Shown here piece after piece: positions 7,879 to 59,359 of a DNA stretch of 64,000 nt. A program made the position numbers and the translations under genes. Position 1 is the first letter of the stretch. Every line of letters starts with the position of its first letter. The stretch comes from Algiphilus aromaticivorans DG1253 (GTDB lineage Bacteria > Pseudomonadota > Gammaproteobacteria > Nevskiales > Nevskiaceae): contig NZ_JPOG01000001.1 in NCBI RefSeq assembly GCF_000733765.1, forward strand, positions 1 to 64,000. The letters run 5' to 3'. The notes under the pieces are model-generated. The model was not told where the DNA came from. It saw nothing but the letters and a program-made list of their open reading frames with translations, and made no database searches.

Positions 7879-9873
7879 TCACCAATGCTCCCCCTTGAAG
7901 AGATTGGCGAAGACGACCTGCTCGATGGTGGGCTTGCCGCCTTCCTTGATGCCGTGGGCGGCGCTGGAGGAGGGGAAGAGCTGGAAGCCTTTGGAGAGGA
8001 TGTAGTCGTTCATCTTCGGCCAGACGGCATAGCTCAGCGCGGCGGCGGTGCCGACCGGGGTGGCGATCGACTTGGGTCGCTTGAGGATGGCTTCGACCAC
8101 CGTGTCGGCGGCGTGCTCGGGGGTCCAGGTGGGCACGTAGTCGTACATCTTGGTGGGCGCGATCATCGGCGTGCGCACCAGCGGCATGTAGATGGCCGTG
8201 GTGTGGATGTTGCGGCTACGCACTTCGGCCGACAGGCAGCGCGTGTAGGCGTCCAGGGCCGACTTGGAGGCTACGTAGGCCGAGAAGCGCGCGGCATTGG
8301 CCAGCACACCGATGGAGCTGATGTTGATGATGTGCCCGGACTTTCGGCGCGCCATCTCGGGAAGCAGATTCATGATCAGCCGGATGGCGCCGAAGTAGTT
8401 CAGCTGCATCGTGCGCTCGTAGTCGTGGAAGCGGTCGAAGGATTCGAAGACCGCGCGGCGGATTGAGCGCCCGGCGTTGTTGATGAGTACATCGACGTGC
8501 CCGAAGTCGGCCAGCACCTGCTGGGCCATCGCGTCGATGGCCTCCATGCTGTTGAGGTCCGTGGGGTAGCAGTGTGCCTCGCCGCCGGCCTTCTCCAGGA
8601 TGTAACGGGTTTCATCCAGCTTCTCGGGGGTGCGCGCGACAAGGATCACCTTGGCACCGCCTGCGGCCAGTTTCTTGGCGGTGGCGAAGCCGATGCCGCT
8701 GGAGGCGCCGGTGATGAGCACGACCTTGCCGCCGATGCGGCGCGGCAGCGCCGACGGAATCCTTACGTCCAGGTCCAGGTGCAGCTCCCAGTACTGGAAG
8801 AGCTTGTCGGCGTAGTCGCGGATATCCGGGCACTGGATGCCGGTGCCCTTGAGCGCAGCGCGGGCGTTGCGTTCATCGAAGATGGCCGGGTTGAAGACAT
8901 AGCCGAGCACCGAGACCGGCACGCCAAGGGCACGTGAGGTCATGCGCAGCACGTTGCCGGGAACGAGGCGGATCGCCGAGTCGGTGACCTGACGCATCGG
9001 TGAGGGAAGCCTGCCCATGCCGCCAAGGTCGACCGAGCGCGCAATTTCCGGGCCGTGCGCGGCTTCGAGCAGGGTACCGATGAGTTCGCCGACGCTGGGC
9101 GACTTGGACTGGATCAGGTGAAAGCACTCACCGTCGCCCTTTTCGCGGTGGGCGATGGCGTGCATGGCCAGTGCGACATAGTCGACCGGCGCCAGCGGCA
9201 CGCGGCCGCCGTCGACGCCGATCATGGGGAGCCACTTCGGAACCTTGTCGCGCAGGCGCTGGATGGTCTTGAAGAAGTAGTAGGGGCCGTCGACCTTGTC
9301 CATCTCGCCGGTCTCGGAAGAGCCGACGACCGCGCCGGGGCGATAGATGCGGAAGGGGACCCGGCACTCTTCGCGGACGAGTTTCTCGGACTCGAACTTG
9401 GTCCGGTAGTAGGGATGATCCAGGCGCTGGCCCTCGTCGAACATGTCCTCGGTGAACTGGCCGTTGAAGTTGGTACCGGCCACGGCCACCGAGCTCATGT
9501 GGTGGAAGCGCGGGTTGCCGCCCAGGCTGTTGGCGAAGTCGACGACGTTGCGCGTGCCATCGATATTGATGCGATCGGCCGTTTCGTCGTCCATGTTCAT
9601 GTCGTAGACGGCGGCCAGATGGAAGATGTGATCGATCTTGCCGGAGAGCTTCTTGCGCGCGTTGGCCGAGGTGAGTCCGGACTCGGAGATGTCGCCCCAG
9701 ACCGGATGCAGGCGGGCGGCCATGTCGTCATCGAAGGCGCGCTTCAGCTTGTCGAGCTTGTCGCGGGAGGCTTCGCGCACCAGCACGTGCACCTGCGCGT
9801 CGCTGTCCTGCAGCAGACGTGCGACCAGAAAGCGGCCGATGAAGCCGGTGGCACCCGTGACGAAGTAGTTCAT
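7879..9873 (-). CDS. Two-domain fatty acyl-CoA reductase (alcohol-forming type)
   Basis: A 664-residue fusion of two NAD(P)-binding domains. The N-terminal extended SDR/FAR domain (~1-360) starts MNYFVTGATGFIGRFLVARL and contains FRIYRPGAVVGSSETGEMDK and a Tyr-x-x-x-Lys (YYRTK). The C-terminal classical SDR domain (~380-664) has VVLITGASSGIGFATAKKLA, NNAGRSIRRAVFESFDRFHD and YVASK. Order, length and many stretches match the Marinobacter enzyme Maqu_2220 (about 660 residues), which reduces fatty acyl-CoA, via the aldehyde, to the fatty alcohol used for wax esters. No wax ester synthase is in the window. The activity is inferred by homology. Confidence 0.85.
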   Translation of the reverse strand: MNYFVTGATGFIGRFLVARLLQDSDAQVHVLVREASRDKLDKLKRAFDDDMAARLHPVWGDISESGLTSANARKKLSGKIDHIFHLAAVYDMNMDDETADRINIDGTRNVVDFANSLGGNPRFHHMSSVAVAGTNFNGQFTEDMFDEGQRLDHPYYRTKFESEKLVREECRVPFRIYRPGAVVGSSETGEMDKVDGPYYFFKTIQRLRDKVPKWLPMIGVDGGRVPLAPVDYVALAMHAIAHREKGDGECFHLIQSKSPSVGELIGTLLEAAHGPEIARSVDLGGMGRLPSPMRQVTDSAIRLVPGNVLRMTSRALGVPVSVLGYVFNPAIFDERNARAALKGTGIQCPDIRDYADKLFQYWELHLDLDVRIPSALPRRIGGKVVLITGASSGIGFATAKKLAAGGAKVILVARTPEKLDETRYILEKAGGEAHCYPTDLNSMEAIDAMAQQVLADFGHVDVLINNAGRSIRRAVFESFDRFHDYERTMQLNYFGAIRLIMNLLPEMARRKSGHIINISSIGVLANAARFSAYVASKSALDAYTRCLSAEVRSRNIHTTAIYMPLVRTPMIAPTKMYDYVPTWTPEHAADTVVEAILKRPKSIATPVGTAAALSYAVWPKMNDYILSKGFQLFPSSSAAHGIKEGGKPTIEQVVFANLFKGEHW

Positions 9874-52164: not shown

Positions 52165-53469
52165 ATGAGTCAACGCCTGAAGCTGAGTGGCCCGCGCGGC
52201 CGCGTCGCCATCGTCGCCGGTCTGCGCACGCCCTTCGCCCGGATGGGCACGCATTTCCGCGACATCAACGCGGTGGATCTCGGTGCCATGCTGGTGGCCG
52301 AGCTGATCGCGCGCAGCGATCTGGAGCGTGACGAGATCGATCAGATCGTTTTCGGCATGACGGTGATGATGCCGGAGGCCCCCTTCATCGCCCGCGAGAT
52401 CGCGCTGGCCTGCGGCATGCCCGACGTCGACGCTTACAGCATCACCCGCGCCTGCGCGACCAGCTTCCAGACGCCGGCCAGCGCGGCCGAGAGCATTCTG
52501 ACCGGTCAGACCGACGTCGCCATCGCCGGCGGCGTCGATTCCACCTCGCACCCGCCCATCACGATTTCCAAGAAGCTCACGGCGGTGCTGCGCGATGCGC
52601 AGCTCGCCAAGACCACCAAGCAGCGTCTCAAGCTCTTCGCCCAGCTGCGGCCGAAGGATCTGCTGCCGGTGCCGCCGTCGATCACCGAGTACTCGGTGGG
52701 CGAAACCATGGGCCAGAGCGCCGAGAAGATGGTCAAGAAGTGGGGCGTTACCCGCGCCGAGCAGGACGATATCGCCCACGCCTCGCACAGCAACGCCGCC
52801 AACGCCTGGAAGCAGGGCTGGATGGACGACCAGGTCATGACCGCCTTCGTGCCGCCCAAGTCCTCGCCGGTGCACGAGGACAATCTGGTGCGCATGAATT
52901 CCGAGCGCAGCAGCTACGACAAGCTCAAGCCGGCCTTCGACAAGCAGTTCGGCTCGGTCACCGCCGGCAACTCCAGCCCGCTGACCGACGGCGCGGCGGC
53001 GATGATCCTGATGAGCGAGGAGAAGGCCAAGGCGATGGGCTACAAGCCGCTGGGCTACATCCGCGGCTACCACTTCGCGGCCAAGACGCCCGCCGATGAT
53101 CTGCTGATGGGCCCGGTGCGCGCCGCGCCGGTGGCGCTGGACCGCGCCGGCGTGACGCTGGCCGACATGACGCTTGTCGACATGCACGAGGCCTTCGCCG
53201 CACAGATCGCCTGCAACCTCAAGGGCCTGGCTTCGAAGAAATACTTCGAGGAGACCATGGGCCGCAGCCAGCCGGTGGGCGAGGTCGATCCGGCCAAGCT
53301 CAACGTCAACGGCGGCTCCATCGCCTACGGCCACCCATTCGGTGCCACCGGCGCGCGCGTCATCACGCAGACCCTCAATGAGCTGCAGCGTCGGGGCGGC
53401 GGCATGGCCCTGACCACGGCCTGTGCGGCCGGTGGCATCGGTGCCGCGATGGTGCTGGAAAGCGAATAA
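52165..53469 (+). CDS. fadI: Acetyl-CoA acyltransferase FadI (thiolase)
   Basis: A 434-residue 3-ketoacyl-CoA thiolase, the beta subunit of the FadIJ complex. RACATSFQTPASAAESIL carries the nucleophilic Cys (~residue 98), DMHEAFAAQ the Glu region, NGGSIAYGHPFGATGAR the active His, and TTACAAGGIGAAMVLE the second Cys. Its length and the long central loop fit FadI rather than FadA. ATG at 52165 follows CGGAG. It heads the fad operon, 12 nt before fadJ. Confidence 0.93.
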   Translation: MSQRLKLSGPRGRVAIVAGLRTPFARMGTHFRDINAVDLGAMLVAELIARSDLERDEIDQIVFGMTVMMPEAPFIAREIALACGMPDVDAYSITRACATSFQTPASAAESILTGQTDVAIAGGVDSTSHPPITISKKLTAVLRDAQLAKTTKQRLKLFAQLRPKDLLPVPPSITEYSVGETMGQSAEKMVKKWGVTRAEQDDIAHASHSNAANAWKQGWMDDQVMTAFVPPKSSPVHEDNLVRMNSERSSYDKLKPAFDKQFGSVTAGNSSPLTDGAAAMILMSEEKAKAMGYKPLGYIRGYHFAAKTPADDLLMGPVRAAPVALDRAGVTLADMTLVDMHEAFAAQIACNLKGLASKKYFEETMGRSQPVGEVDPAKLNVNGGSIAYGHPFGATGARVITQTLNELQRRGGGMALTTACAAGGIGAAMVLESE

Positions 53470-53481
53470 CCGGAGCGAGCC

Positions 53482-55854
53482 ATGAGTGAAGAAGACAACA
53501 ACCGCGTTGCGAAGAAGGCTGCGGCCAAGAAGACCGGCGCCAAGAAGGCAGCTGTGAAGAAGTCCGCCGCCAAGAAGACGGTGGTCAAGAAGGCGACTGC
53601 GAAGAAGACGGCTGCCAAGAAATCCGCCGCTGCCAAGAAAGCGGCGCCGGCCAAGCGCGCGGCGGGCAAGACCGCGACCAAGGTCGCCTCCGGCACCAGC
53701 TTTCGTTTCACCCGCGGTAACGACGACATCGCTGTCATCGAGATCAATGTCCCGGGTGACGCGCAGAACACGCTCAAGGCCGAGTTCGCGGACGAGTTCG
53801 CCGCGGCCATGAAGCAGGTGCGCGGCGACGGCAAACTCAAGGGCGTCGTGCTGATGTCGACGAAGCCCGGCTCCTTCGTTGCCGGCGCCGACATCCAGAT
53901 GTTCGAGCGCGCGCAGACCGCGGCCGAGGTCGAAAAACTCTCGACGCAGTGCCAGCAGGCCTTTCAGCAGCTGGAGGATCTGGAGATCCCGGTGGTCGCG
54001 GCCATCGACGGCGCTTGCCTCGGCGGCGGTCTCGAACTGGCGCTGGCCTGTCACGCGCGCATCGCCACCGACAGCGCCCAGACCAAGCTCGGCCTGCCCG
54101 AATGCATGCTGGGCCTGCTGCCCGCCGGCGGCGGCACGCAGCGCCTGCCCCGCCTGATCGGCATTCCGGGTGCCCTTGATCTCCTGCTGACCGGCAAGGA
54201 GCTGCGCCCGGCCAAAGCCAAGAAGCTCGGCATCGTCGATCAGGTCGTGCCGGCCGGCGTGCTGCTGGAGGCCGCGCGCAAGCAGATCGCCAAGATGCAG
54301 GGCAAGACCCCGCGTCGCACCAGCACCCAGCAGAAGGTGCGCAAGGACTTCAAGGCCGTGGCGACCGGCATCGCCATGGAGGACAACTCGGCCGGCCGAC
54401 ACTTCCTCTTCCAGCAGGCGCGCAAGCAGCTGCTGGCCAAGACGCGCGGCAATTATCCGGCGCAGGAGCGCATCCTCGACGTCGTCGCCACCGGCTACGC
54501 CAAGGGCATCACCGCCGGCTACAAGGCCGAGGCCAGGGCCTTCGGCGAGCTGGCCATGACGGAGGTTTCCAAGCAGCTGCGCGGCATCTTCTTCGCGCAG
54601 ACCGCGCTCAAGAAGGAGACCTTCGTGCCGGCCGGCGTCGAGCAGCGTCCGGTGCAGCGCGTCGGTGTGCTGGGCGCGGGCCTGATGGGCGCGGGCATCG
54701 CGCTGGTCAGCATCAACAAGGCCGGCAAGGATGTGCGCTTCAAGGATCGCGACAACGACGGCCTGGCGCACGGCTATAAGTATCTGCGCGGCTTCTACGA
54801 CAAGCGCGTCAAGCGCGGCGCCATGCGCCGCTTCGACGCCGAGACCGAGCTGCGCCGCGCCACAGGCACCACCGACAACCGCGGCATGGCCGGCTGCGAC
54901 ATCGTTGTCGAGGCCGTCTTCGAGGATCTCGACCTCAAGCACCGCATGATCGCCGACGTGGAGGCCAACTGCCGTCCGGACACGGTCTTCGCCTCGAACA
55001 CCTCCTCGATCCCGATCACCGATCTGGCCAAGGGTGCCAAGCGCCCGGAGAACGTCATCGGCATGCACTACTTCTCGCCGGTCGAGAAGATGCCGCTGCT
55101 GGAGATCATTACCACGCCCAAGACCGCGCCCGAGGTCACCGCCTCGGCCGTTGCGCTGGGCAAGGCGCAGGGCAAGACCGTCATCGTTGTCGCCGACGGC
55201 CCCGGCTTCTACACCACGCGCACGCTGGCGCCCTATCTCAACGAGGCGACGCGCCTGCTGGGTGAGGGTGTCGATCCGCACGCCGTCGACAAGGCGCTGA
55301 TGGATTTCGGCTACCCGGTGGGCCCCATCGCGCTGCTCGACGAGGTCGGCATCGATGTCGGCACCAAGGTGGCGCCGGTGCTGGAGAAGGCCTTCGGTGC
55401 GCGCATGGAAAGCCCCAAGGCCTCCGGCTCAATGATCGAGGCCGGCTATCTGGGCCGCAAGACGGGCAAGGGCTTCTACGTCTACGACGCCAAGTCCAAG
55501 AAGGAGGGCGACAAGCCGGTCAACGATGCGCTCTTCGATCTGCTGGACGCACCGCGCGGACAGTCCGTGCCGGCCGAGACGATCACCGAACGCTGCACTT
55601 GGATGCTGGTCAACGAGGCCGTGCACTGCCTGGCCGACGGCATCATCAGCGAGCCCATGCACGGCGACATCGGCGCCGTCTTCGGCATCGGCTTTCCGCC
55701 CTTCCGCGGTGGGCCCTTCCGCTTCATCGATGGCATCGGTGCCGACAAGGCGGTGAAGACGCTCGAGCGCCTCGCCAAGCAGCACGGCGAGCGCTTCGAG
55801 CCGGCACCGCTGCTGCGCGAGATGGCCGCCTCCGGCAAGCGCTTCTACGACTAG
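53482..55854 (+). CDS. fadJ: Trifunctional beta-oxidation protein FadJ with histone H1-like N-terminal tail
   Basis: A 790-residue enoyl-CoA hydratase/3-hydroxyacyl-CoA dehydrogenase. The crotonase domain (~70-260) has DGACLGGGLELALACHAR and GLPECMLGLLPAGGGTQRLPRL. The NAD-binding loop GVLGAGLMGAGIA is at ~394, followed by the dehydrogenase C-terminal domains. Unusually, residues ~9-67 are an Ala/Lys-rich tail built of about eight pentads ending in AKK or VKK. FadJ proteins normally begin at the crotonase domain, so this is an addition of about 65 residues. The ATG at 53482 has GGAGCGA upstream, and no later start precedes the crotonase domain convincingly. Confidence 0.93.
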   Translation: MSEEDNNRVAKKAAAKKTGAKKAAVKKSAAKKTVVKKATAKKTAAKKSAAAKKAAPAKRAAGKTATKVASGTSFRFTRGNDDIAVIEINVPGDAQNTLKAEFADEFAAAMKQVRGDGKLKGVVLMSTKPGSFVAGADIQMFERAQTAAEVEKLSTQCQQAFQQLEDLEIPVVAAIDGACLGGGLELALACHARIATDSAQTKLGLPECMLGLLPAGGGTQRLPRLIGIPGALDLLLTGKELRPAKAKKLGIVDQVVPAGVLLEAARKQIAKMQGKTPRRTSTQQKVRKDFKAVATGIAMEDNSAGRHFLFQQARKQLLAKTRGNYPAQERILDVVATGYAKGITAGYKAEARAFGELAMTEVSKQLRGIFFAQTALKKETFVPAGVEQRPVQRVGVLGAGLMGAGIALVSINKAGKDVRFKDRDNDGLAHGYKYLRGFYDKRVKRGAMRRFDAETELRRATGTTDNRGMAGCDIVVEAVFEDLDLKHRMIADVEANCRPDTVFASNTSSIPITDLAKGAKRPENVIGMHYFSPVEKMPLLEIITTPKTAPEVTASAVALGKAQGKTVIVVADGPGFYTTRTLAPYLNEATRLLGEGVDPHAVDKALMDFGYPVGPIALLDEVGIDVGTKVAPVLEKAFGARMESPKASGSMIEAGYLGRKTGKGFYVYDAKSKKEGDKPVNDALFDLLDAPRGQSVPAETITERCTWMLVNEAVHCLADGIISEPMHGDIGAVFGIGFPPFRGGPFRFIDGIGADKAVKTLERLAKQHGERFEPAPLLREMAASGKRFYD
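53505..53685 (+). repeat. Ala/Lys pentad repeat inside fadJ
   Basis: Tandem ~15-bp coding repeats with the shape GC(N)-NNN-GCC-AAG-AAG, giving pentads such as SAAKK, TVVKK, ATAKK and TAAKK. Composition resembles eukaryotic linker histones, AlgP and the DNA-binding tail of the phasin PhaF. Confidence 0.85.
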
Positions 55855-55863
55855 GAACCCGAC

Positions 55864-58113
55864 ATGTTCGAAAAACTCATGCACTGGATGCGGGACAACA
55901 AGCTGCTCCCGCAGATCTCCGATACGGAGCGCGAGGCGCTGGAGGCCGGCGATGTCTGGCTGGACGGCGAGCTCTTCGGCGGCAACCCCGATTTCAAGCG
56001 GATGCTGGCCTACAGTTATCAGCGCCTGACCGAAGAGGAGCAGGCTTTCCTCGACGGCCCCTGCGAGGAGCTGCTCAAGCGCGCCGACGGCTATGCCATC
56101 GCCGAGAGCGGCGAGGCACCCGAGGAACTGGTCGCCTTCATGCGCGAAAAAGGCTTCTTCGGCCTGATCGTGCCCAAGGAATATGGCGGTCTCGGCTTCT
56201 CGACGCTGGCGCGATCGACCATCATGGCCAAGGTGACGCCGCACTCCGGCACGCTGTCGGCGCTGGTGGTCATTCCCAACACCCTGGGCGCGGCCGAGCT
56301 GCTGGTGGACTACGGCACCGAGGAACAGAAGGCCTACTACCTGCCACGCCTGGCGCGCGGCGAGATGATTCCCTGCTTCGGGCTGACCGAGCCCGGCGCC
56401 GGCTCGGACGCGGCCTCGATCCAGGCCGAGGGCGAGGTCTTCCGCGCCGAGGACGGCACGCCCAGCATCCGTCTGAACTTCCGCAAGCGCTACATCACCC
56501 TGGCGCCCATCGCGGACCTGATCTCGCTGGCCTGTCATCTGCACGACCCGGAGAATCTCCTGGGCAAGGGCGAGCACCCCGGCATCAGCGTCGTGCTGCT
56601 GCACAGCGATACGCCGGGGCTGACGCAGGGTGAGCGCCACGAGCCCATCGGCGAGCCCTTCCCGAACGGGCCGCTGGAAGGCAAGGATGTCGTCGTGCCG
56701 GCCGAGCGCATTCTCGGCGGCCTCGACCGCGCCGGCCAGGGCTGGAAGATGCTGATGGAATCACTGGCCGGTGGCCGCATGGTCTCGCTGCCGGCGACCG
56801 CCGCCGGCGGCCTGCAGGCCGCGGCCGCGATGGTCGGCCCCTACTCGATCGTTCGCGAGCAGTTCGGCATGCCCATCGGGCGCATGGACGGTGTCGAGGA
56901 CAAGATCGGCCGCGTGGCGGCCACCGCCTACATGGTCGAGGGCGCGCGCATCTTCGGCTGCTCGGCAGTCAACGACGGGATTCATCCGCCGGTGGTCTCG
57001 GGCGTCATGAAGGCCTATACCACCGAGCTGGGCCGTTCGGCGGCCACCGACGCCATGGACGTCTTCGCCGGCGCCGGCGTCATGCAGGGCCCGAACAATG
57101 TCATCGGCCGCGGCTACTGCTCGGCGCCGGTGGCGATCACGGTCGAGGGCGCCAACATCATGACGCGCACGCTGATGATCTTCGGCCAGGGCGCGACACG
57201 CTCGCACCCCTACGCCATCAAGGTCGTGCGTGCTGTCGAGAACGACGACGCCGATGCCTTCCGCAGCAATCTGTTGGGCTGGGTCGGCCATTTCTTCTCT
57301 GGTATCGGCCGCAGTGTCGTGCGCGGCCTCACGCGCGGCTGGACCGTGCGTGTGCCGGACGTCCACCGCGACACCAAGCGTTACTACCGGCGTCTGGGCT
57401 GGGCCGCGGCGCGCTTCGGGCTACTCACCGATCTGGCGATGTTCTTTGTCGGCGGCAAGCTCAAGGCGCGCGGCAAGCTCACCGGCCGCTACGCCGACGC
57501 CGTCGCCTGGATGCTGCTCGGCTTCGCCGCGCTGCGTCGTTTCGAGGCGGAAGGTCGTCGCGAGGAGGACCTGCCGCTGGTGCACCATGCGCTGCAGACC
57601 GCCCTGCACGAGATCCAGCAGGCCTTCGAGGGCATCTACCGCAACTTCGGTGGCCCGGTGGGCGTGCTGCTGCGCTGGGTCGGCCTGCCGCTGGCGCGCA
57701 TCAATCCGCTGGGCGCGGCGCCCGACGACACGCTGAGCCACGCTGCGGCGCAGACCATTCAGAGCGACAACGCCCAGTACGCGCGCCTGATGGAAGGCAG
57801 CTTCCTGCCGCAGGACCGTACAGTCGGCGGCGGTCGCCTGCTGCACGCCTGGCGTCAGGTCTGTGCCGCCCAGCCCGCCGCCGCCCGCGTCGCTGCAGCG
57901 CAGAAGGCACGCAAGCTGCCGCGCGGCCACGCTGAGGAACTGGCCGAGCAGGCGCTGGCCGCGGGTGTCATCAGCGAGGTCGAGGCCGAGCAGCTGCGTG
58001 CCGCACGCGCCGCGCGGATGGCGGCGGTCGAGGTCGACGTCTTCCCGGCCGACCACTTCCGCAGCCGCGCGCAGCCTGTTGCCGAGCCGGCCAAGCAGGC
58101 CGCCAACTTCTGA
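55864..58113 (+). CDS. fadE: Acyl-CoA dehydrogenase FadE
   Basis: A 749-residue acyl-CoA dehydrogenase of the large FadE type. The dehydrogenase core (~80-460) has GLIVPKEYGGLGFS, CFGLTEPGAGSDAASIQ (FAD/substrate loop), REQFGMPIGRMDGVEDKIG and TVEGANIMTRTLMIFGQG. A C-terminal extension of ~270 residues is typical of FadE. It inserts the first double bond into acyl-CoA. It lies 9 nt after fadJ. Confidence 0.94.
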   Translation: MFEKLMHWMRDNKLLPQISDTEREALEAGDVWLDGELFGGNPDFKRMLAYSYQRLTEEEQAFLDGPCEELLKRADGYAIAESGEAPEELVAFMREKGFFGLIVPKEYGGLGFSTLARSTIMAKVTPHSGTLSALVVIPNTLGAAELLVDYGTEEQKAYYLPRLARGEMIPCFGLTEPGAGSDAASIQAEGEVFRAEDGTPSIRLNFRKRYITLAPIADLISLACHLHDPENLLGKGEHPGISVVLLHSDTPGLTQGERHEPIGEPFPNGPLEGKDVVVPAERILGGLDRAGQGWKMLMESLAGGRMVSLPATAAGGLQAAAAMVGPYSIVREQFGMPIGRMDGVEDKIGRVAATAYMVEGARIFGCSAVNDGIHPPVVSGVMKAYTTELGRSAATDAMDVFAGAGVMQGPNNVIGRGYCSAPVAITVEGANIMTRTLMIFGQGATRSHPYAIKVVRAVENDDADAFRSNLLGWVGHFFSGIGRSVVRGLTRGWTVRVPDVHRDTKRYYRRLGWAAARFGLLTDLAMFFVGGKLKARGKLTGRYADAVAWMLLGFAALRRFEAEGRREEDLPLVHHALQTALHEIQQAFEGIYRNFGGPVGVLLRWVGLPLARINPLGAAPDDTLSHAAAQTIQSDNAQYARLMEGSFLPQDRTVGGGRLLHAWRQVCAAQPAAARVAAAQKARKLPRGHAEELAEQALAAGVISEVEAEQLRAARAARMAAVEVDVFPADHFRSRAQPVAEPAKQAANF

Positions 58114-58126
58114 AACCGGATCAATC

Positions 58127-59359
58127 ATGAGCGATACCGCCAACCCGCTGCTCGACGGCCTGCGCGTGCTGGACTGCTCGCGCCTGCTGCCGGGGCCCTT
58201 CTGCACGCTCTATCTCGCTCAGCTCGGCGCCGAGGTCATCAAGATCGAGGAGCCCGACGGTGGCGACTATGCGCGCGCCATGAGCCCGGAACTCTTCGAG
58301 CTGGTCAACCGCGGCAAGAAGTCCGTGACGCTGGATCTGCGCAAGGCCGAGGACGTCGAGGCCTTCAAGCGCCTCGCCGCCGAGGCCGACGTCGTGGTGG
58401 ATTCCTTCCGCCCCGGCGTCATGGACCGGCTGGGCTGCGGCTACGAGGATCTGCGCGCGGTCAACCCCAAGCTGGTCTACGCCGCGCTTACCGGCTACGG
58501 CCAGAGCGGGCCCTACCGCGACCGCGCCGGCCACGACATGAACTACCTCAGCTACGCCGGCGTGCTCGACCAGATCGGCAGCGCCGGTGGTCCGCCCGTG
58601 CAGTCCAATGTGCAGATCGCGGATCTGGCCGGCGGCGCGCTGACCTGCGCCATCGGCATCCTGTCGGCCGTCATCGGCGCACGCGCGTCGGGGCAGGGGG
58701 CCTTCGTGGATGTCGGCATGCAGGACGGCTCGCTGGCGCTGCAGACGGTGGCGTTGTCGACGCTGCGCAGCCTGGGCCACACCCAGGCCCGGGGCGAGGA
58801 CATGCTCTCCGGGGCGCTGCCCAACTACAACCTCTATCGCTGCCGCGGCGGTGGCTATATCGCCGTCGGCGCGCTGGAGCCGAAGTTCTTCCAGAAGCTG
58901 CTGGCTGCCCTGCAGGAAGAGCTGGTCCCCGGCGCTGTGAGCAGCGTGCTGGCATCGGCCGCGAGTCGACTGCAGAAGAAGAAAAAGTCCAGCGGTGGCG
59001 GGAAATCCTCTGGTGGTGGCAAGGGCGGCGTCGGCAAGCTGGCCAAGCTGATGGATGATCCGACCCGCGCCCGCCGCGCGCTGGCGCCGGTGCGCTGGGC
59101 GCTGGTGGCGGCCTTTCGCCTGAAGACCCGCGACGAATGGGCGCGCATTCTGGAAGACGCCGACGCCTGCATCAGCCCGGTGCTATCGCTGGAAGAGGCA
59201 CTGGCCAATGAGCAGACCGTGGCGCGAGGCATGGTCGAGGATCACGGCGGCAAGCCGGCGCTGCGCAACCCTATCCAGTTCCTGGGCGCGCAGACGCGCA
59301 GCGGTGGCGCACCGGCGCTGGGTGCTGACAACGCCGAGATCCTGGGGCGCCCGGCCTAG
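58127..59359 (+). CDS. CaiB/BaiF CoA-transferase (alpha-methylacyl-CoA racemase-like) with Lys/Gly insert
   Basis: A 410-residue class III CoA-transferase family protein: GLRVLDCSRLLPGPFCTLYLAQLGAEVIKIEEP, LDLRKAEDVEAFKRLAAEADVVVDSFRPGVMDRLG, and the catalytic-Asp region DMNYLSYAGVL. The sequence is closest in pattern to alpha-methylacyl-CoA racemases, which prepare branched acyl-CoA for beta-oxidation, matching the fad context. About residues 275-320 hold an unusual low-complexity insert (LQKKKKSSGGGKSSGGGKGG). ATG at 58127 lies 13 nt after fadE. Confidence 0.87.
   Translation: MSDTANPLLDGLRVLDCSRLLPGPFCTLYLAQLGAEVIKIEEPDGGDYARAMSPELFELVNRGKKSVTLDLRKAEDVEAFKRLAAEADVVVDSFRPGVMDRLGCGYEDLRAVNPKLVYAALTGYGQSGPYRDRAGHDMNYLSYAGVLDQIGSAGGPPVQSNVQIADLAGGALTCAIGILSAVIGARASGQGAFVDVGMQDGSLALQTVALSTLRSLGHTQARGEDMLSGALPNYNLYRCRGGGYIAVGALEPKFFQKLLAALQEELVPGAVSSVLASAASRLQKKKKSSGGGKSSGGGKGGVGKLAKLMDDPTRARRALAPVRWALVAAFRLKTRDEWARILEDADACISPVLSLEEALANEQTVARGMVEDHGGKPALRNPIQFLGAQTRSGGAPALGADNAEILGRPA

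Follow-up and report, generated by a model that had tools for sequence, protein, structure and literature searches.

A lysine-rich, histone H1-like N-terminal tail on the beta-oxidation enzyme FadJ of Algiphilus, a candidate electrostatic anchor

The fadJ locus and its N-terminal extension

The window analysed here, 64,000 nt of the genome of Algiphilus aromaticivorans DG1253, a member of a marine genus of the Nevskiales, carries fadI, fadJ and a fadE-type gene in succession (Table 1). The fadJ product passes the equivalog cut-off of the FadJ model NF008363 (980.9 bits compared to 869), the match beginning at residue 72, and scores 891.6 bits with the older TIGR02440 model, which is under the cut-off of 968. 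The gene of its thiolase partner FadI is located immediately upstream, as is characteristic of FadJ. With NF008363 matching from residue 72 and Pfam ECH_1 from residue 80, the normal crotonase domain that the original prediction placed behind the tail is present, and by its sequence the core is an ordinary enzyme, aligning across residues 74-789 with the alpha chain of E. coli FadIJ (PDB 6ysv, 8bnr), which itself has no tail.

Table 1. Features of the fadJ region and further tailed or related genes in the two Algiphilus genomes (G000 and G001). Positions without a locus or contig label refer to the window.
Feature	Position	Strand	Basis or remark
Two-domain fatty acyl-CoA reductase, wax-type	7879-9873	-	PF07993 + adh_short
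fadI, thiolase partner of FadJ	52165-53469	+	NF006516 FadI, 692 bits vs cut-off 560; no tail
GGAG ribosome-binding motif ahead of the tailed start	53472-53475	+	sequence; GGAG motif in congener as well
fadJ, 790 aa, fatty acid oxidation complex subunit alpha, N-terminal tail	53482-55854	+	NF008363, residues 72-790
Polycationic tail, FadJ residues 9-68, KK pentads	53506-53685	+	sequence; AlphaFold low confidence
Imperfect 15-bp (45-bp) tandem repeat within the FadJ tail	53508-53621	+	Tandem Repeats Finder, 69-79% matches
Crotonase (ECH_1) domain, FadJ residues 80-282	53719-54327	+	PF00378, E 2.5e-45
3-Hydroxyacyl-CoA dehydrogenase domains, FadJ residues 394-668	54661-55485	+	PF02737 + PF00725
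fadE-type acyl-CoA dehydrogenase, downstream of fadJ	55864-58113	+	NF007000, PF09317; no tail
K/R/A-rich gene divergent to fadB	L217:5947-6885, G000		
Saccharopine-dehydrogenase-like oxidoreductase, N-terminal AKK tail	L219:7701-9095, G000	-	
MaoC dehydratase, C-terminal AKK tail of about 70 residues	L218:7812-8882, G000	-	
PhaE, class III PHA synthase subunit, ends in short AKK tail	L232:4184-5149, G001	+	
MerR-type regulator, C-terminal K/R-rich tail, near flavin monooxygenase-like gene	L220:6975-7934, G000	+	
Phage-type (Sf6-like) terminase small subunit, N-terminal AKK tail	G000:C1:1994750-1994890	-	

Residues 1-70 of FadJ consist of 30% lysine and 33% alanine and carry a net charge of +20. 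Within residues 9-68 (22 A, 21 K, 6 T, 5 V, 2 G, 2 S, 1 P, 1 R) successive KK pairs are spaced by 5,5,5,5,5,5,5,6 residues. The original prediction had located this tail and its pentads correctly, and its likening to histone H1, AlgP and PhaF agrees with the K/A-rich composition. Its description as nearly pure Ala/Lys/Thr/Ser holds for Ala, Lys and Thr, but serine is rarer than stated (2/60) and valine is found instead (5/60). At least 54 A/K/T/S/V combined with at least 15 K occur in only 9 of the 16,806 60-residue segments of the 63 ORFs called in the window, whose mean lysine content is 1.7 K per 60 residues; with a looser composition cut-off, the fadJ ORF was still the sole match among these ORFs. 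GC3 (0.85 in the tail, 0.91 in the core) and lysine codons (19 AAG and 2 AAA in the tail, 48 AAG and 3 AAA in the core) are similar in the two parts, so the tail resembles other coding DNA of this genome. In an AlphaFold model built on 24 aligned sequences, residues 25-70 had pLDDT values under 50, and most of the core was modelled with high confidence.

No tail was found on FadI, FadE or the FadB paralogue. A CaiB-like CoA transferase encoded downstream of fadE contains a Lys/Gly/Ser-rich loop (KKKKSSGGGKSSGGGKGG, window 58949-59038, + strand). As a second tail this loop was rejected as ordinary, its orthologues showing variable loops there, some of other composition.

The ATG of fadJ is located 12 bases past the fadI stop codon. 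As FadJ proteins elsewhere start near residue 72 of this ORF, the tail might be an annotation artefact, untranslated DNA behind which translation begins. However, the stretch from residue 34 to residue 110 is free of ATG, GTG and TTG codons, and the next ATG falls inside the crotonase domain, so that a start directly behind the tail is impossible. In the congener Algiphilus sp. HH_bin9 the start region has the same architecture (GGAG, ATG, MSDEQNPATAK, KK pentads), and such codons are absent between residues 34 and 105. On the basis of the start-codon positions and the congener, with GGAG ahead of the tailed ATG in both species, we rejected the artefact, whose probability we consider close to negligible. 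Translation of the tail, anticipated from ribosome-binding site and frame, is well supported, as is its conservation.

Conservation in a congener and distribution among FadJ orthologues

The sole congener compared, HH_bin9 (G001, L048), is a MAG, and the comparison concerns one species pair. Its FadJ has the tail at the same place, preceded by a similar ribosome-binding site, while the FadJ cores of the two species share 78% identity. Across 66 aligned tail codons, lysine was kept in 18/18 lysine columns, compared to 22 identical columns among the other 48. Because repeats align easily, control alignments were run. Lysine-column agreement with FadJ averaged 0.47 for shuffled tails (maximum 0.71) and ranged from 0.58 to 0.83 for non-orthologous tails; the orthologous FadJ tails (100%) exceed both controls in this sample of one species pair. 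Among other orthologous tails, that of TopA kept 23/24 lysine columns, similar to FadJ, and that of a saccharopine-dehydrogenase-like oxidoreductase was much looser (8/20). For the FadJ tail dN was 0.28 and dS about 2, compared to 0.17 and 0.75 for the core; the high dS of the tail suggests fast repeat turnover.

The N-termini of about 90 FadJ orthologue loci from the same family, the order and far beyond were read by eye. All lacked the tail and had short extensions or none, as the original prediction had assumed for FadJ elsewhere. Comparison of orthologues, which it proposed as a check, found the tail kept in the congener and absent beyond it. A general occurrence of the tail in FadJ was therefore rejected, and so far the tail appears to be confined to the two Algiphilus species.

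FadJ proteins of family members bear short polar extensions where Algiphilus has the tail, which may have grown from such an extension. The main rival to a functional role is near-neutral growth, in which a short polar extension lengthened through slippage of 15-bp units in a genome with abundant AKK-coding sequence and was tolerated without function. The internal 15/45-bp repeats, the short extensions of relatives at the same place and the high synonymous divergence of the tail are consistent with this explanation, as are the functionally mixed carriers described below, which include a MerR regulator and a phage-type terminase. It accounts less well for the retention of all aligned lysines and of the pentad register at this level of core divergence, above both controls, and for independent N- or C-terminal gains on several lipid enzymes in one genus. 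We regard neutral growth as a serious possibility, though on the unlikely side.

Other tailed proteins, the gene beside fadB and storage genes

Carriers in the A. aromaticivorans genome were sought with a tail query, Pfam HC2 and a KKxxxKK pattern, a search-based census that could miss divergent tails; the three approaches agree on the carriers. Besides FadJ these are TopA, a 138-aa stand-alone H1-like protein, the MerR regulator, the phage-type terminase small subunit, the fadB-divergent protein, the saccharopine-dehydrogenase-like oxidoreductase and a MaoC dehydratase. The congener (L158) shares the oxidoreductase tail; 28 other loci, one of them truncated at a contig edge, lack it. No such tail occurs on the MaoC dehydratase of 26 relatives, and the congener copy ends at a contig end before the tail would begin. 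PhaE of the congener ends in a short tail of this type; A. aromaticivorans has no PhaE match, and its PhaC differs from that of the congener. In sampled relatives, recognisable tails were found on TopA, H1-like, HU-like, phasin-like and SWIB-like proteins, the names being read from the sequences. Placing such tails on metabolic enzymes therefore seems to be a habit of the genus Algiphilus. The lipid-related grouping of the tailed enzymes was noticed afterwards.

A divergent neighbour encoding a K/R/A-rich protein accompanies fadB in 25 of the 30 loci examined (L287-L315, in the order, and the Algiphilus copy L217; one of the remaining five is cut by a contig end). Phasin_2 was detected in the N-terminal part of 4/5 of these proteins tested, and the Algiphilus protein gave no Phasin_2 match. 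A motif near PSPxSRAxLATSxGKK is common to many of them, including the Algiphilus copy. Throughout the family, this synteny links proteins of the H1-like and phasin types to the operon for fatty-acid oxidation.

The genome carries PhaC, WS/DGAT and acyl-CoA reductase genes. In the original prediction, the wax-type reductase was taken to fit storage inclusions, one of three possible targets of the tail beside the nucleoid and polyphosphate. The reductase is real, but the argument does not discriminate, as wax synthase/DGAT genes occur in 59/61 related genomes and the tailed FadJ only in the two Algiphilus. WS/DGAT presence was therefore rejected as a discriminator, being near-universal in relatives, and PHA synthase was rejected as a common denominator, not being conserved between the two species. 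Since many relatives with tailless FadJ have storage genes too, these genes are not decisive between partners, and a specifically PHA-related partner is doubtful because the two species have different types of PHA synthase.

A candidate electrostatic anchor

Comparable tails are known from several proteins. The AKKA-repeat domain of mycobacterial HBHA binds DNA (PMC10665949) as well as anionic lipid and is required for lipid inclusion formation (PMC6176652), but it is C-terminal and belongs to a coiled-coil adhesin, not to an enzyme. Like FadJ, PhaF and AlgP of Pseudomonas have long disordered Lys/Ala tails, which position granules by linking storage granules to DNA or spacing polyphosphate granules (PMC3574117, PMC9239181), and at the family level the likeness extends to the K/A-rich genes, some with phasin domains, that adjoin fadB. 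Their tails, however, are C-terminal, of the KPAA type and located on structural proteins, whereas that of FadJ is N-terminal on an enzyme and, instead of KPAA tandem repeats, has KK pentads and a single proline among its 60 residues. In PhaF/AlgP the same chain includes a phasin/helical N-terminal domain; no phasin family was found among the Pfam matches of FadJ. PAKKA-motif lysines of Ralstonia PhaM attach PHB granules to the nucleoid (PMC9049629, PMC3556143), but PhaM has few such motifs and is a PHA synthase activator rather than a beta-oxidation enzyme. MLDS holds Rhodococcus lipid droplets to DNA (PMC5504291). Chlamydial Hc2 (Pfam HC2; PMC2848022) shares lysine-rich pentamers in varying number, but all of Hc2 is tail, compared to about 70/790 residues, one tenth, of FadJ; the composition-driven HC2 score of FadJ is 30.5 bits for the whole protein and 40.1 bits in a six-frame search (gathering cut-off 40). 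AUH (PDB 1hzd), an AU-binding enoyl-CoA hydratase, likewise has the crotonase fold and was deposited as a protein that binds nucleic acid, but it is a short hydratase and not a tailed multienzyme.

We propose that the N-terminal tail with which Algiphilus FadJ is translated is disordered and polycationic and serves as an electrostatic anchor, a proposal whose chances we consider evenly balanced. The tail probably fastens FadJ and other lipid enzymes to DNA or another negatively charged cell surface, and on the best reading its target would be the nucleoid or inclusions attached to it. Binding to a polyanion, with DNA or nucleoid-attached inclusions first, is favoured because of the related tails in HBHA, AlgP, PhaF and PhaM and the MLDS case. 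In solved relatives, the FadI-FadJ complex has more than one FadJ chain. The complex would display several tails able to bind polyanions irrespective of sequence, with nucleoid DNA as the most probable partner, either directly or at sites where PHA or neutral-lipid inclusions rest on the nucleoid, as in the PhaF and PhaM systems. Such anchoring would keep beta-oxidation close to the store or to other lipid enzymes with tails and should leave catalysis itself unchanged.

The nucleoid or storage-inclusion tether gains indirect support from the same kind of tail on other lipid enzymes and from the K/A-rich, sometimes phasin-like gene divergent to fadB. The same tail type on the DNA enzyme TopA and on the H1-like protein points to an anchor, as do the apparently genus-specific tails on the oxidoreductase, the MaoC dehydratase and the congener PhaE, and the conservation of start site and aligned lysines in the congener. 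Against it stand the restriction of the tail to two species, one represented by a MAG, the tailless FadI, FadE and FadB paralogue, the high synonymous divergence of the tail, and the fact that the functional grouping of the carriers was recognised only afterwards.

Two alternatives retain binding but change the partner. The tail could bind anionic membrane lipid or the phospholipid skin of lipid inclusions instead of DNA, keeping the complex near its acyl-CoA supply. The lysine-rich region of HBHA is needed for phosphoinositide binding and inclusion formation (PMC6176652), human SCCPDH, whose broad superfamily also includes one carrier, is reportedly enriched in lipid droplets (PMC12281486), and the tails sit on lipid enzymes in a genome with WS/DGAT and acyl-CoA reductase. 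TopA and H1-like proteins with the same tail type nevertheless point to DNA, no hydrophobic or amphipathic anchor is evident in the tail, and relatives with tailless FadJ have storage genes equally often, so we consider lipid binding improbable. Polyphosphate granules, on which AlgP with its similar tail composition sits (PMC9239181), are a still more improbable partner, no specific link having been found for any tailed enzyme here.

The electrostatic anchor may be extended to a common polycationic address tag that brings FadJ, the oxidoreductase, the MaoC dehydratase and, in one species, PhaE together on the nucleoid or on a storage compartment bound to it, the H1-like protein encoded beside fadB acting as partner. 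Such a metabolic compartment organised by histone-like tails is a speculative and rather unlikely extension.

The literature searched yielded no tailed FadJ and no beta-oxidation enzyme bearing such a tail; going by that literature, the tail type itself is known and its placement on a beta-oxidation enzyme would be the new part. Since the tail is removable without touching the active sites of FadJ, tethered and free beta-oxidation should be directly comparable. Should the tail localise FadJ, a histone-like tether would position central fat catabolism in the bacterial cell and tie metabolism to chromosome or inclusion organisation. As a recent gain in one genus, it may represent a localisation tag on several enzymes of one metabolic area.
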